This document shows, in pieces, positions 35,811 through 41,176 of a DNA stretch of 64,000 nt. Made by a program: the position numbers and the translations under genes. Source of the stretch: Clostridiales bacterium (GTDB lineage Bacteria > Bacillota > Clostridia > Christensenellales > UBA1242); NCBI GenBank assembly GCA_918292005.1, contig CAKJZJ010000003.1:91617-155616 (forward strand), read 5' to 3'. Within the stretch, counting starts at the first letter, position 1. Each line of letters starts with the position of its first letter. The notes under the pieces were generated by a model. The model was not told where the DNA came from and searched no databases. It saw only the letters and a program-made list of their open reading frames with translations.

Positions 35811-37067
35811 ATGATTAATATTCCTAAGGGCACAAAAGACATGTTGCCTAAAGATAGTTATAAATGGCAAAAAATTAGACATGCAGTAGAATGTATTGCA
35901 CAAAAATATAATTTAAAAGAAATATCCACACCAGGATTTGAAAGTACTGATCTTTTTGTCAGGTCTGATGGTAATAGCAGTGATATTGTTACCAAGGAAA
36001 TGTACACTTTTTTAGATAAGGGAGACAGAAGTATCACACTAAAACCAGAAGGTACTGCCGGAGTTGTTAGGTCGTATATAGAAAATGGTCTAGGTAATGA
36101 AATATTGCCTTGCAAATTATTTTATATTACACCATGCTATAGATATGAGAAACCACAAGCAGGTAGACTGCGTGAGCATCACCAATTTGGCTGTGAGATA
36201 TTTGGTGCCAATTCTTTAGCAAGTGATATTGAGACTATTCTTATTGCTTATGATTTTTACAAATCATTTGGTATTGAGCCTACCATTCATATCAATTTTT
36301 TAGGATGTGATGAATGTAAAGATAGATATAGAGAGAATCTAAAGAAATTTGTAGAGCCATATTTGAAAGACATGTGTGATGATTGTCATCGCAGATATGA
36401 GACCAATCCACTCAGGATGTTAGATTGTAAAAGCGAAGAATGTAAAGCCATTCTAAAAGATGCTCCTGCTGTTACTGACGATCTATGTCCTATGTGTAAA
36501 AGTAAATTTGAAGATGTAAAGAAAATGATTCAAGGTTTTGGAATCAAATACGTGTGCGATTCCAAATTGGTTCGTGGACTTGATTATTACACCGATTTGG
36601 TGTTTGAATTCATTGATGATGACAAGGTGCTAGGGCAGAATGCACTAGGTGCCGGTGGTAGGTACAATAAATTGGTTGAATCATTGGGTGGTAAACAAAC
36701 GCCAGTTATTGGTTTTGGTATTGGCATTGAGAGATTCTTGTTGTATTTAGAGAGTAAGGGTATTACCATTCCAGATGATAGCAAAATACAAGTTTATGTT
36801 GCTAGCAGTACGGAAAATGAGCATTATGTAATCAAATTTGTTAAATCTCTCAGAGACAAAGGTTTCTGTGTTGAGAGTGATCTAATGGATAGGAGTTTAA
36901 AATCTCAATTCAAGTATGCAGATAAGATTCATGCACAATATGTAATTACCATAGGTGATGATGAGATTAATGAAAAGAAAGTTTCTATTAAGAATATGTC
37001 TACTGGTGAACAAGAGAAAATTTGGGAAAGTGATTTGGTGGAGTATTTAAACAAACATGTTCAGTAG
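35811..37067 (+). CDS. hisS: Histidyl-tRNA synthetase
   Basis: 418 aa from ATG 35811 (AAAAGGGG upstream). Class II synthetase. Motif 1 region PKGTKDMLP, motif 2 PCYRYEKPQAGRLREHHQFGCEIFG, the histidine-binding VRGLDYYTDLVFE and motif 3 FGIGIERFLLYLE are present, plus a C-terminal anticodon domain. An insertion between motif 2 and the histidine loop has seven cysteines (CDECK, CDDCH, CKSEEC, CPMC), as in clostridial HisS, likely a zinc-binding insert. aspS, often the next gene, is missing; tcdA overlaps the end by 11 nt. Confidence 0.96.
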   Translation: MINIPKGTKDMLPKDSYKWQKIRHAVECIAQKYNLKEISTPGFESTDLFVRSDGNSSDIVTKEMYTFLDKGDRSITLKPEGTAGVVRSYIENGLGNEILPCKLFYITPCYRYEKPQAGRLREHHQFGCEIFGANSLASDIETILIAYDFYKSFGIEPTIHINFLGCDECKDRYRENLKKFVEPYLKDMCDDCHRRYETNPLRMLDCKSEECKAILKDAPAVTDDLCPMCKSKFEDVKKMIQGFGIKYVCDSKLVRGLDYYTDLVFEFIDDDKVLGQNALGAGGRYNKLVESLGGKQTPVIGFGIGIERFLLYLESKGITIPDDSKIQVYVASSTENEHYVIKFVKSLRDKGFCVESDLMDRSLKSQFKYADKIHAQYVITIGDDEINEKKVSIKNMSTGEQEKIWESDLVEYLNKHVQ

Positions 37068-37728
37068 GGAAAAATTACTTTTAGGTGAAAAATTTAATTT
37101 GTTATTAGATAGCCGTGTCATTGTATTTGGTGTCGGTGGTGTCGGTGGTTACGTGGTAGAGATGCTGGTTAGGGCTGGCATAGGTCATATATGTATTGTG
37201 GATTTCGATACAATTGATATTACTAATAAAAATAGACAAATTATTGCTCTAGATTCTACACTCGGTCAGAATAAAGTAGATGCACTAAAATCTAGGATTT
37301 TAGACATCAATAGTGATTGTGATATTATGACAATGAATACGAAACTTACTCCAGAGAATATTGATTCATTTCATTTGAAAGATTTTGATTATGTGGTAGA
37401 TTGCATAGATATGGTAACTAGCAAAACAGCATTAATAGAATATGCACATCAGCATGGTATCCCTATTATTAGTGCCATGGGTGCTGGTAATAGATATGAC
37501 ATTCCGAATTTTGAAATAAAAGACATTTTTGATACTACCAATGATGGATTGGCGAAAGTTTTGCGTAAAAACTTGCGTCATGCAGGAATTACAAATCATA
37601 CAGTATGTTGTGCAGCATCAAAGGCAATACCTATAGGTAGACAGATAGGTAGCATATCTTATTATCCAGCAGTGTGTGGTTGTACTATTTCGGCATACGT
37701 AGTGAATAGAATATTACAGGGGGAATAA
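37057..37728 (+). CDS. tcdA: tRNA threonylcarbamoyladenosine dehydratase TcdA (ThiF/MoeB/HesA family)
   Basis: 223 aa. E1-like ATPase with Rossmann motif GVGGVGGYVVE at 25-35, adenylation residues in DFDTIDITNKNRQ and DCIDMVTSKTALIEYAH. It lacks the CxxC zinc pairs of MoeB/ThiF, and the ending VCGCTISAYVVNRIL is YgdL/TcdA-like. It cyclises t6A37 of tRNA to ct6A. Overlaps hisS by 11 nt; yrvM near hisS/aspS in Bacillus has the same placement. MoeB-type sulfur-carrier activation is the alternative, less likely with no sulfur carrier gene nearby. Confidence 0.9.
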   Translation: MFSREKLLLGEKFNLLLDSRVIVFGVGGVGGYVVEMLVRAGIGHICIVDFDTIDITNKNRQIIALDSTLGQNKVDALKSRILDINSDCDIMTMNTKLTPENIDSFHLKDFDYVVDCIDMVTSKTALIEYAHQHGIPIISAMGAGNRYDIPNFEIKDIFDTTNDGLAKVLRKNLRHAGITNHTVCCAASKAIPIGRQIGSISYYPAVCGCTISAYVVNRILQGE

Positions 37729-37730
37729 TT

Positions 37731-38033
37731 ATGGTTATTGATGTGACAGATGATACTTTTGAAAAAGAAGTATTGGGCAATTCGGGAGTTGTCATAGTAG
37801 ATTTCTATGGTACGTGGTGTATGCCATGCAAGATGATGGCACCGATTCTTGAGAAGATTGCAGATGAGAATGATGTGGTTCTTGCCAAAGTAGATATTGA
37901 TGAAAATGACAAACTAGTGCGTGAATTTGGTATTATGGCAGTTCCTACTATCAAAGTATTCAAAAGTGGTGTTGAAATACAAACTTTTGTCGGAATGACT
38001 AGCGAAAGTGACATAAAATCTGCTATAAAATAA
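37731..38033 (+). CDS. trxA: Thioredoxin
   Basis: 100 aa, full thioredoxin fold. The redox site is WCMPC (Cys30, Cys33) with Met-Pro instead of the usual Gly-Pro, a change that tends to alter redox potential. The cis-proline loop is MAVPTIKVF. ATG follows GGGGGAATA, 2 nt after tcdA, so it belongs to the same operon. Ends in a terminator. A partner thioredoxin reductase is not in the window. The next gene is a cysteine desulfurase in a separate unit. Confidence 0.93.
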   Translation: MVIDVTDDTFEKEVLGNSGVVIVDFYGTWCMPCKMMAPILEKIADENDVVLAKVDIDENDKLVREFGIMAVPTIKVFKSGVEIQTFVGMTSESDIKSAIK

Positions 38034-38051
38034 AACATATATAATTTTGGG

Positions 38052-38078
38052 GCTACTATTGACATAGTAGCTTTTTTG
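38052..38078 (+). terminator. Intrinsic terminator after trxA
   Basis: GCTACTAT-TGAC-ATAGTAGC then six T. Confidence 0.9.
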
Positions 38079-38118
38079 ATTTAAAATATAATAAGAATTA
38101 TGTTTAATGGAGAGTTTT

Positions 38119-39474
38119 ATGAAAAGAATTTATCTAGATAGTGCAGCAACTACTATGCTTAGTGGCGAAGTTTTACAAGAAATGATGCCATATATGACTA
38201 GCATCTATGGTAATAGTAATAGTCTACATTCTTTCGGTAGAGAAGCAGTTGCTGGTGTTGATAAGGCTAGAGACATTATAGCAAATTATATCGGTGCAAA
38301 GAGCAACGAAGTATTTTTCACATCTGGTGGAACTGAAGCAAATAACTGGGCTATTAGAGGTGTGGCTCATGCCAATGTGAAAAAAGGTAAACACATTATT
38401 ACCAGTAGTATAGAACATCACAGTGTTTTAGATGCTTGCAAGCAATTAGAAAAGGAAGGTTTCGAAGTAACATATTTGCCTGTTGATGAGACTGGACTTG
38501 TATCAGTTAGTGATGTTTTGCATGAGATTAGACCTACAACAGTACTTGTATCTATCATGGCTGTTAATAATGAAGTAGGAACTATTCAGAATATTCGTGC
38601 TATTAGTGAAACTGTAAAATTTTATGGTGCATATTTCCACGTAGATGCCGTACAGGCATTGGGTGCTATGCCTATCAATGTAGATGACTTGGGCGTTGAC
38701 TTGATGACAATGTCTGCACATAAAATCCATGGCCCTAAGGGTGCAGGTGCACTTTATATAAGAAATGGTGTGAAGATAGATAAATTTATGCTCGGTGGTG
38801 AGCAGGAGATGAATAGGAGAGGTGGTACTGTCAATGTTCCAGCAGTTGTTGGTTTTGGTAAGGCAGTAGAACTAAATGCTAGAGATCTTGCATTCAAGGA
38901 TAAAAAACTCTATGAATTATCTACATATTTCATTAATAAAATTCAGTATGAAATAGAAGATATCAAGATAAATGGCAATCCTAGACAAAAATCAAATGCT
39001 ATCGTTTCCGTTACTTTTGATGGAATAGAAGGTGAAAATCTGATTGCTTTGCTAGATATGGAAGGAATTGCTGTATCTACTGGATCTGCTTGTGCATCTG
39101 GATCTCTAGAAAAAAGCCATGTGCTAGCAGCAATGGGTATGACCGATGATGAAATATCTGGAACTATTAGATTTTCATTCGATATTGATGTTACAAAATC
39201 TGATATAGATACTGTAGTGAGAGTACTATGCGAATGTGTAGAAAAACTCCGTAAAAACAGCCCAATTAAAACTAGAAAGAAAAATGCCGTACAGGAAGAA
39301 GCACCTGTAGAGACCAAAAAAGAAAAAACTATCAAGGCATCTGAAACAAAAGTAGAAGCAAACAAAAAAACAGAGAAAAAGAAAGAAGAAAAAGTAGCTA
39401 AAAAGCAGGATAAACCAGTAGAAAAAACTGTAGAAAATAAAAAAGCACCTAAGTCTAAAAAGAAGGAGAAATAA
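38119..39474 (+). CDS. iscS: Cysteine desulfurase (IscS/NifS) with lysine-rich C-terminal tail
   Basis: 451 aa from ATG 38119 (GGAG at 38109-38112; ATG 38107 is less well placed). PLP enzyme that takes sulfur from cysteine. PLP lysine Lys202 in [10 protein letters not shown], substrate His in IEHHSVLD, and the catalytic loop cysteine Cys325 in [10 protein letters not shown] are present, so the enzyme core (about 1-375) is intact. Residues ~377-451 are an extra tail, mostly Lys, Glu, Val, Pro and Thr, unlike ordinary IscS. The next gene, 2 nt later, is IscU-like and has a much longer tail of the same composition. The tail likely is disordered and may mediate partner or RNA/membrane contacts (inference). 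Confidence 0.93.
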
Positions 39475-39476
39475 TT

Positions 39477-40943
39477 ATGTATAATGAAATTATTATGAAC
39501 AGATTTTTAGATTTGAAATATTTGCAACCATTAAAAAATGCCAATATTACTAATATTTCTAAAGATAATGAGTTTGGTGACGTTGTTAAGTTTTATGCTC
39601 AAATAAATACAGAAAACGTTGTACAAAAGATTACTTTTAAAGCCAAAGGTTGTACTACTTTTCTAGCATTTTGTTCATTCTTCTGCGAAAAAGTAAAGGG
39701 TAAAAAATTAGATAGAACTCTGAAAATTACAGAAGAAGATTTGTTATCGATCTGTGAAGTTGAAGAAAGTAAAAAACATGTATTTGAAATCATATTGACC
39801 ACATATGCAAAAATGATAGAGAAATACAAAAAAGGTGTAAAAGAAGGCAAAATTATTCCTTGCGAAGTTGTTGTTGAAGAGGAAGAAAAACCTAAAAAAG
39901 TAAAAGAAATTAAGGTAAAGCCAGTAAATAACGAAGAAGAAACAATAGAAAATATTGTTGTTGAAAAGAAAAACAAGAAAAAGGTAGAAAAGGCTGTTCC
40001 AGAAGTAATTGTTGAGCCTGTTGTGGAAGAGACTAATCCCGATATTCAGAAAAAACAAGAGAAAAAAGTGGTAGAGCCAAAAGAGAAAGTTGAAAAATCC
40101 GAGAAAAAACCAGTTAAACTTCAAGAGAAGAAAGAGATAATTCAACCTGCTATTGAAAAAGAGCCTATTGTAGAGACACCTGTTGCAACTCAAAAAGAAG
40201 AGAAAAAGGCAAAAGATAAAAAAGAAAAAGTTTCTAAAAAACAAAAAGTTGATGAAAAAGCTGTGATTATCGAAGAGAAAAAGCCAGATGAAAAACAATC
40301 TGTGAAACCTGAGAAACCAAGCAAAAAGGTAGAAAAGGTAGAAAAAAAGCCAGTAGTTGTTGAAGAAAAACCTAATAAAATTGTAAAGGAAAAACCTTTA
40401 AAAGAGAAAAAAGAGACTAAAAAGGCAGATAAAAAAGTAACTCCAATCGTAAAAGAAGAGAAAAAAGAAGAAAAAACAAAAGTGGAGCAGAATCAAAAGG
40501 CAACTGTAAGTAGTCTATCTGCAATGCTTAGTCGTTTGAATGCTAGTCATGCAAATAATGATGCTAAACCTGCAAATACAACTGATAAAAAGCCAACAAA
40601 CAAAAAACCTACTACTAAAACAAAAACAGTTGATACCAAAAAAGCAGAGCAAGAGCAAAAGACTAATAATCAAAAATCAAATTTACTTGCTATGCAGAAT
40701 AGCCTAGCAAAACTCAGACTACAGAATGAAAATAGGGCAACGGAAGAAAAGAAATCTTCTAAAAAAGTTGCAGAGAAAAAGTCTGCTACCAATAGTAAAC
40801 CTGCCGAGAAAAAAGCACCTGTAGAGAAGAAAAAAGAAAGCAAAAAAGATACAAAACCAGAGAATATTAAAGAAACAAAAGTAGATAAAAAAGAAGAAAC
40901 AAAGCCAAATAAATCATTCTTCTCTTGGTTTAAAAGAAAATAA
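39477..40943 (+). CDS. Degenerate IscU/NifU-like scaffold domain fused to a long Lys/Glu-rich tail
   Basis: 488 aa. Residues 1-~122 fit the IscU fold: MYNEIIMNRFLDLKYLQPLKN, then 'GD' at 34-35, KITFKAKGCTTFLAFCSFFCE and a helical end. Of the three cluster-binding cysteines only the middle one (Cys59 in KGC) is kept. The first position (normally GxPxCGD) is Phe33, the third (normally HC) is Val102; Asp35 and His101 remain. Residues ~125-488 are a low-complexity Lys/Glu/Pro/Val tail, interrupted by SSLSAMLSRLNAS and SNLLAMQNSLAKLRLQNE helices, ending SFFSWFKRK. Directly after iscS in one operon (2-nt gap, AAGGAGA). It may act in sulfur transfer rather than cluster assembly; function unproven. 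Confidence 0.7.
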   Translation: MYNEIIMNRFLDLKYLQPLKNANITNISKDNEFGDVVKFYAQINTENVVQKITFKAKGCTTFLAFCSFFCEKVKGKKLDRTLKITEEDLLSICEVEESKKHVFEIILTTYAKMIEKYKKGVKEGKIIPCEVVVEEEEKPKKVKEIKVKPVNNEEETIENIVVEKKNKKKVEKAVPEVIVEPVVEETNPDIQKKQEKKVVEPKEKVEKSEKKPVKLQEKKEIIQPAIEKEPIVETPVATQKEEKKAKDKKEKVSKKQKVDEKAVIIEEKKPDEKQSVKPEKPSKKVEKVEKKPVVVEEKPNKIVKEKPLKEKKETKKADKKVTPIVKEEKKEEKTKVEQNQKATVSSLSAMLSRLNASHANNDAKPANTTDKKPTNKKPTTKTKTVDTKKAEQEQKTNNQKSNLLAMQNSLAKLRLQNENRATEEKKSSKKVAEKKSATNSKPAEKKAPVEKKKESKKDTKPENIKETKVDKKEETKPNKSFFSWFKRK

Positions 40944-40951
40944 TAAATTTT

Positions 40952-40980
40952 AACACCAATTGCAAAGTTGGTGTTTTTTT
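40952..40980 (+). terminator. Intrinsic terminator after the IscU-like gene
   Basis: ACACCAA...TTGGTGT stem with 8-nt loop, then seven T. Confidence 0.88.
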
Positions 40981-41035: not shown

Positions 41036-41176
41036 ATGAAAGACGCAGTTTTAATAGGAATGGCTTTAGGATTTGTAGTTGGTGCATTGGTTGTCTCCAA
41101 TAATAGCCAAGCAAAGCAAATGGTGGAAAAAAGTAAAAAGGCTGTAAAAGATAAATTAAAGAAAATATCTGATTAA
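41036..41176 (+). CDS. Small single-pass membrane protein, YtxH-like (46 aa)
   Basis: 46 aa from ATG 41036, placed after the strong site GGAGGTGAAA. An N-terminal glycine-rich membrane helix (about 4-22, VLIGMALGFVVGALVVS) is followed by a basic amphipathic tail with repeating Lys (MVEKSKKAVKDKLKKI). This layout is that of short YtxH-domain proteins, membrane-anchored stress-associated proteins of Firmicutes with no known reaction. It stands alone between the iscS operon and ruvX. An earlier start at 40991 is open but has no ribosome binding site. Confidence 0.6.
   Translation: MKDAVLIGMALGFVVGALVVSNNSQAKQMVEKSKKAVKDKLKKISD

Follow-up and report, generated by a model that had tools for sequence, protein, structure and literature searches.

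We analysed a 64,000-nt stretch of DNA (the window) from a Clostridiales bacterium, positions 91,617 to 155,616 of contig CAKJZJ010000003.1 (GenBank: GCA_918292005.1), whose genome is a 1.2-Mb bin of 19 contigs. The gene order in the window is hisS, a TcdA-like gene, trxA, iscS and a tailed iscU, followed by genes that we take from their translations to be ruvX, a DUF1292 gene, rpsB and tsf. The TcdA-like gene of the ThiF family (37057..37728, + strand) scored 136.6 bits against ThiF, with TcdA as the best NCBIfam match at 142 bits, under the cut-off of 304 bits, and the thioredoxin gene trxA (37731..38033, +) scored 102.5 bits against TIGR01068 (cut-off 96.8). The next gene (38119..39474, +) encodes an iscS/nifS-type cysteine desulfurase of 451 aa and is followed after 2 nt by a gene (39477..40943, +) for an IscU/NifU_N-domain protein of 488 aa that ends in SFFSWFKRK. 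Terminator-like hairpins lie in the trxA/iscS gap (38049..38074, +) and 3' of the tailed IscU gene (40952..40975, +), so that the two genes probably form one transcription unit. A promoter-like site upstream of iscS (TTGACA-17-TAAAAT, 11/12; 38059..38087, +) is weak, since 29 such sites were found against 25.2 expected. Behind iscU, a 45-aa protein with a hydrophobic N-terminal stretch is encoded at 41039-41176; its position is conserved in many loci of the family, and it gave no Pfam match at E 0.001.

The IscS of the window matched Aminotran_5 with 308 bits and, as its best NCBIfam model, FeS_nifS with 474 bits (below the cut-off of 530.75). Its H-N-D-K-C catalytic positions are intact, and with the catalytic Lys, Cys and His and the fold it is a class I cysteine desulfurase (IscS/NifS). 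A Lys/Glu-rich C-terminal tail (39265..39471, +) follows the LRxxSP motif, as the preliminary description had noted, though it measures 69 rather than about 75 residues. None of the other 147 IscS in the alignment has more than 25 aa at this place, and the IscS tail is thus an oddity of the window's genome. It is absent in all five relatives that share the long IscU tail. Matching tails are therefore not a general feature, and a tail-to-tail pair, as had been proposed, is rejected because five of the six genomes with tailed IscU lack the IscS tail. A 33-nt stretch in the IscS tail (39293-39325) is 88% identical to one in the IscU tail (40807-40839). Low-complexity stretches are uncommon in the window: only this IscS, this IscU and IF-2 passed the scoring among 59 CDS listed by hand. 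Elsewhere in the family, the catalytic residues of IscS were also changed at six loci with degenerate IscU (L178, L195, L197, L093, L137 and L148; genera g6, g32 and g42).

The IscU-like core (residues 1-122; 39477..39842, +) belongs to the NifU_N family (PF01592), which matched residues 2-119 with 46.8 bits (cut-off 22), and it matched IscU sequences in the PDB with E values down to 1.1e-12. The protein nevertheless falls far under the scores of the curated IscU, NifU and SufU equivalogs of NCBIfam, with 33.9 of 192.4 bits for TIGR01999 and 39.5 of 187.9 bits for TIGR03419 (both IscU scaffold models), and 34.5 bits for the core against the SufU model (cut-off 92.5). The cysteines that canonical relatives carry at two scaffold sites are replaced by F33 and V102, while D35, C59 and H101 stay, exactly as the preliminary description had it; Phe33 also stands where SufU has its first-position acceptor cysteine (Cys40/41). 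With two of the three cysteines gone, the protein is very probably no longer a standard cluster builder, in agreement with the earlier suggestion.

The remainder of the protein (residues 123-488; 39843..40940, +) is a low-complexity tail of 366 aa with 27% Lys and 16% Glu. The long-tailed form, carried by some uncultured gut bacteria, was found in 6 of 13 genomes of the same genus, with whole proteins of 272 to 637 aa and tails of 141 to 507 aa. The expectation that close relatives would share the tail was thus borne out in part: G008 has a shorter tail of 81 aa, and the canonical copies of G001, G009 and G012 have none. Three motifs recur in the tails. Motif 1 (residues 346-359, SLSAMLSRLNASHA; 40512..40553, +) has a counterpart in each of the other five tailed proteins (z 7.6, or 9.6 from another reference), and motif 3, the aromatic-basic C-terminus KSFFSWFKRK (40911..40940, +), was seen in five of the six tailed proteins, being absent in G003 (z 14.7, or 17.3 from another reference). 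Motif 2 (residues 401-418; 40677..40730, +) is weaker (z 5.5, or 7.0 from another reference). Compared with shuffled tails, for which the 95% limit was about z 4.2 and the highest maximum in 200 shuffles 5.8, motifs 1 and 3 stand out clearly and motif 2 less clearly. A K-rich match at residues 433-446 (z 7.2) was discounted as a motif, as it looks compositional. The IscU tail is a trait of the clade and carries conserved motifs.

A DNA pattern for motif 3 matched only the tailed iscU in the window's genome, and the idea of a genome-wide targeting signal was dropped; across the 13 genomes of the genus it matched the ends of four tailed IscU genes and four sites elsewhere, and the reversed control matched once. 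Growth of the tail by tandem repeats accounts at most for a part of it, with four short arrays and eight families of weak direct repeats detected. Canonical IscU copies can be tailed as well: five of them in the family carry tails of 48-108 aa. In 151 genomes of the order, a sample that excluded the other tailed members of the genus, the longest open frame around an IscU match was 323 aa (G296), the window's own excepted. Tails of independent appearance were seen in genera g11, g21, g22 and g40 (L173, L175, L180, L181, L052, L055 and L056); these have short helical motifs at their ends, for example SxIDxIxxxLSxAIKKLN, whose likeness to motif 1 was judged by eye only.

None of the six tailed proteins retains the three cluster cysteines together with the Asp. 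Their cores are 44-55% identical to that of the window, and 32 of the 134 columns of the core do not vary, among them those of G34, D35, C59, H101 and C70; C66 is present in five of the six, including the window's protein, and the clade has F/Y at position 33 and V/I at position 102. The D35-C59-H101 triad is kept by all six and by G008, and by only one other of the 77 degenerate cores described below. The FxNPxNxG stretch is lost in all six, whereas 68-94% of the other degenerate copies keep it, and it is wholly or nearly kept in G008 and the canonical genus members; docking to IscS may therefore have changed in the tailed clade. The ratio of IscU to IscS distances in the tailed clade is 1.94, inside the 0.97-2.38 spanned by canonical groups, and faster evolution of the tailed core was set aside as proof of a new role.

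Loss of cluster cysteines is widespread in the family. Among 131 operon-type (B) loci, with three B-type loci left out for gaps at ligand columns, 54 keep three Cys and the Asp and 77 are degenerate, and degenerate IscU occurs in 24 of 40 genera. Prevalence is given by an even sample of the family, in which cluster cysteines were lost in 40 of 67 loci; the other loci were picked from a ranking of matches by similarity to the window core, and their proportions do not reflect prevalence. For the order, 151 genomes were searched, 129 gave a match and 26 best matches from other families were fetched, and all 26 keep all three Cys, as do three further loci of the window's family within the order set. 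Cysteines have been lost in every combination, with 28 of the 77 degenerate cores lacking all three, and on a tree of 74 IscS rows the state of IscU changes at least 15 times. In the degenerate cores the ligand cysteines remain at 23, 43 and 21%, whereas Y2, G58, F54 and Y117 are kept at 91-96%, which suggests that the IscU fold is maintained. The distance between iscS and iscU is 50 nt or less in 127 of the 131 loci. A special link of the degenerate form to tcdA was rejected, as the gene precedes only 14 of 71 degenerate loci but 24 of 46 canonical ones.

The helix that follows Cys59 also carries cysteines at new places. At position 66 (residues 62-66 are encoded at 39660-39674 in the window), a Cys occurs in 19 of the 77 degenerate cores, from seven genera, and in 0 of the 54 canonical ones, and at position 65 in 16 degenerate cores and 1 canonical core. 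These could reflect relaxed Ser-to-Cys drift or a moved thiol.

A regular scaffold exists elsewhere in the window's genome. On contig C14, an Rrf2-type regulator and IscS precede a canonical IscU with all three Cys. The tetranucleotide make-up of C14 correlates at 0.81-0.87 with seven stretches of its own genome and at 0.53 or less with 14 stretches of others, and contamination was rejected on these grounds. This Rrf2-iscS-iscU locus (L201:2569-4680) was seen in the window's genome only, among the 13 of the genus. Contig C5 holds an adjacent smsC-smsB-like pair, whose smsB-like gene scored 85.1 bits against SUFBD_core (cut-off 27) and 56.9 of 650 bits against NCBIfam SmsB; an smsC-like gene adjoins the smsB-like gene in 4 of 4 loci examined. 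We consider the SMS-like pair the probable replacement scaffold. In the other five tailed genomes the tailed protein is the sole full NifU_N match, and G003, G004, G006 and G011 have an extra weak partial match in a protein of the 230-aa class. This protein (L204:3071-3763), which has cysteines close in position to those of NifU, is encoded in many of the family's genomes, in several near mnmA, and might be another scaffold in several of them.

The presence of a second machine was compared with the state of IscU in 76 genomes with an IscU match (G005, G007 and G021, without a match, were excluded). SUFBD_core matches were divided into short SmsB-like and full SUF classes, the SMS class resting on one SUFBD_core match, with smsC looked for in four loci. 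Of 21 genomes that lack a SUFBD_core gene, 19 keep a three-Cys IscU, in the operon or as another copy, compared with 18 of the 55 that have one (p 5.6e-6), where incompleteness of metagenome-assembled genomes can mimic gene absence. The first figure includes two rows scored by hand as three-Cys, namely G025, with its IscS cut by a contig end, and G010, with IscU in two frames and Cys2, His and Cys3 kept in the second fragment; without this scoring the comparison is 17/21 vs 18/55 (p 2.3e-4). The difference persisted among genomes of at least 90% completeness (12/13 vs 16/48, p 2.5e-4) and with one genome per genus (11/11 vs 10/30, p 1.6e-4). When phylogeny was controlled with 10 independent pairs, a mean of 6.8 agreed, 0.6 disagreed and 2.5 were undecided (median p 0.0625, or 0.125 when only the operon copy is counted). 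G065, which is 91% complete, is a genuine exception, and G078 (73% complete) has a SufU-like copy only. Within the window's genus, an SmsB-like gene is present in all six tailed genomes, neither an SmsB-like nor a SUF gene was found in the short-form G001, G009, G010 and G012, and G008 combines full SUF with an intermediate IscU copy (D33, C59, G102). Loss of the cluster cysteines of IscU is thus probably, but not provably, associated with a second machine (SmsB-like or SUF), with modest support once phylogeny is controlled, and it is not forced, as the 18 genomes that keep both show.

The preliminary description had proposed a persulfide relay through C59. According to the excerpt of PMC8924461, the metal ligands of mouse ISCU are Cys35, Asp37, Cys61 and His103, and Cys104, the third cysteine, is the persulfide receptor. 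In the sections of PMC10216065 on SufU, Cys40/41 is the acceptor and Cys31, Asp42 and Cys67 hold zinc in the complex, while for E. faecalis Cys128 is the proposed acceptor. In the alignment, the equivalents of Cys35 and Cys104 are missing from the window clade, and those of Asp37, Cys61 and His103 are kept; C59 corresponds to Cys61 of ISCU and Cys67 of SufU, which are described in these excerpts as metal ligands. The two acceptor positions that these sources report for the family are thus the two positions lost here, which disfavours a relay through C59, and a metal site without a sulfur acceptor would be more in line with the residues.

In such a sulfur relay, the persulfide of IscS would pass to C59 or the new C66 and on to MnmA, ThiI or another acceptor, as with SufE, CsdE and SufU. 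The invariance of C59 in the six tailed proteins and G008, the occurrence of C66 in five of the six and in several genera, and the position of tcdA and trxA upstream of iscS in all six tailed genomes argue for such a role. Besides the lost acceptor positions, the many degenerate cores without any of the three cysteines imply that a relay through them is not the general role, and tcdA is rarer at degenerate loci than at canonical ones; we regard the relay as unlikely. Ordinary decay, with IscU as a relic after a takeover by SmsCB and neutral growth of its tail, would account for losses that are many and of different forms, for the altered catalytic residues in some IscS copies, for the varied length of the tail and for tailless canonical copies in the same genus. 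The open frames nevertheless stay beside iscS in genomes of about 1 Mb, the core columns invariant in the tailed six and the fold positions kept family-wide point to constraint, and the tail motifs exceed shuffles, so this explanation too seems improbable. IscU might also be a scaffold after all, holding a cluster or metal through new ligands (C59, C66, C70, D35 and H101), perhaps completed by a partner, which the retention of these residues in the tailed clade would allow. However, C70 has a Cys equivalent in 34 of 54 canonical cores and is therefore not a replacement ligand, two of the three standard ligands have become bulky hydrophobics, and SmsB-like genes are present in all six tailed genomes; we think this quite improbable.

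The explanation we favour, tentatively and with a little less than even confidence, is that a former scaffold has been kept as a partner or adaptor of IscS in the family's minimal-ISC-like IscS-IscU locus. A second scaffold, SmsCB-like here and joined in this species by the canonical IscS-IscU of contig C14, would have taken over cluster building, leaving the IscU site free to decay. SmsCB of M. jannaschii works as a scaffold with sulfide (excerpt of PMC12192291), and SmsBC of T. kodakarensis can also use a desulfurase (excerpt of PMC12442378); on these accounts, either would explain the lapse of the scaffold role. IscU would be retained because it still binds IscS, as the gene order and the kept fold positions suggest, and would support or place the desulfurase. 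The sulfur of IscS may then leave for other uses, such as sulfide for SmsCB or tRNA thiolation, the latter being left as a use by the MnmA domain that 63 of 69 genomes contain (E 3.2e-38 or better). In the tailed clade D35-C59-H101 could hold one metal ion, and the tail may use its conserved motifs to bind a further partner, or its aromatic-basic end to bind a membrane. Several observations count against the adaptor explanation: the modest association once phylogeny is controlled, the genomes that keep a three-Cys IscU despite a second machine, the lost FxNPxNxG stretch of the tailed clade, its divergence ratio (1.9), which lies within that of some canonical groups (1.0-2.4), the changed IscS catalytic residues at six degenerate loci, which look like decay of the pair, and the 230-aa protein as a possible further scaffold. 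A bolder version of the adaptor explanation, which we consider rather doubtful, is that once SmsCB or SUF is present, the IscU of this family has repeatedly become an IscS-docking adaptor without a cluster site, its cysteines moved to the helix at positions 65-66, with one clade gaining a tail with motifs, by which the desulfurase is brought to a partner or the membrane. If true, a core Fe-S scaffold would have been neofunctionalised repeatedly in many genera.

The usual view of IscU is that of an invariable scaffold whose cysteines are essential. The surprising part here is that its cluster site has been lost repeatedly within one family, as it seems where another scaffold exists. One bacterial family presents many natural losses of the cysteines next to a desulfurase that is conserved; some of these fall in a single genus, and genomes with and without a second machine are both represented. 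This allows asking what IscU does for IscS besides holding clusters and how one Fe-S system replaces another. In the open-licence PMC text that was searched, we found neither a description of repeated cluster-site loss within one family nor one of the tailed form, for which the preliminary description had likewise known no precedent.

Known systems close to the pair include MIS (minimal ISC, MisS-MisU), as defined in the excerpts of PMC12442378 and PMC12192291, and clostridial NifS-NifU, with which it shares a two-gene iscS-iscU locus without carriers, a NifU_N domain and a NifS-like desulfurase; it differs in lacking two of three scaffold cysteines and the FxNPxNxG stretch and in its tail of about 360 residues. 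SufU, a zinc-dependent sulfurtransferase, has the IscU fold and, in the excerpt of the M. tuberculosis study (PMC10216065), is a desulfurase partner rather than a scaffold, but its acceptor Cys40 corresponds to Phe33 here. SufE/CsdE with CsdA and TcdA provides a parallel in working only, with a desulfurase, a one-Cys partner and a TcdA-like gene nearby; Pfam and NCBIfam scans of the pair gave no SufE/CsdE match at E 0.1 or better, and the tcdA linkage is weaker in degenerate loci. SMS (SmsC-SmsB) is represented in the genome by the adjacent smsC-smsB-like pair at a locus separate from the tailed pair. The tailed pair itself represents a diverged form of a known locus, the family's ordinary IscS-IscU, and not a new system.
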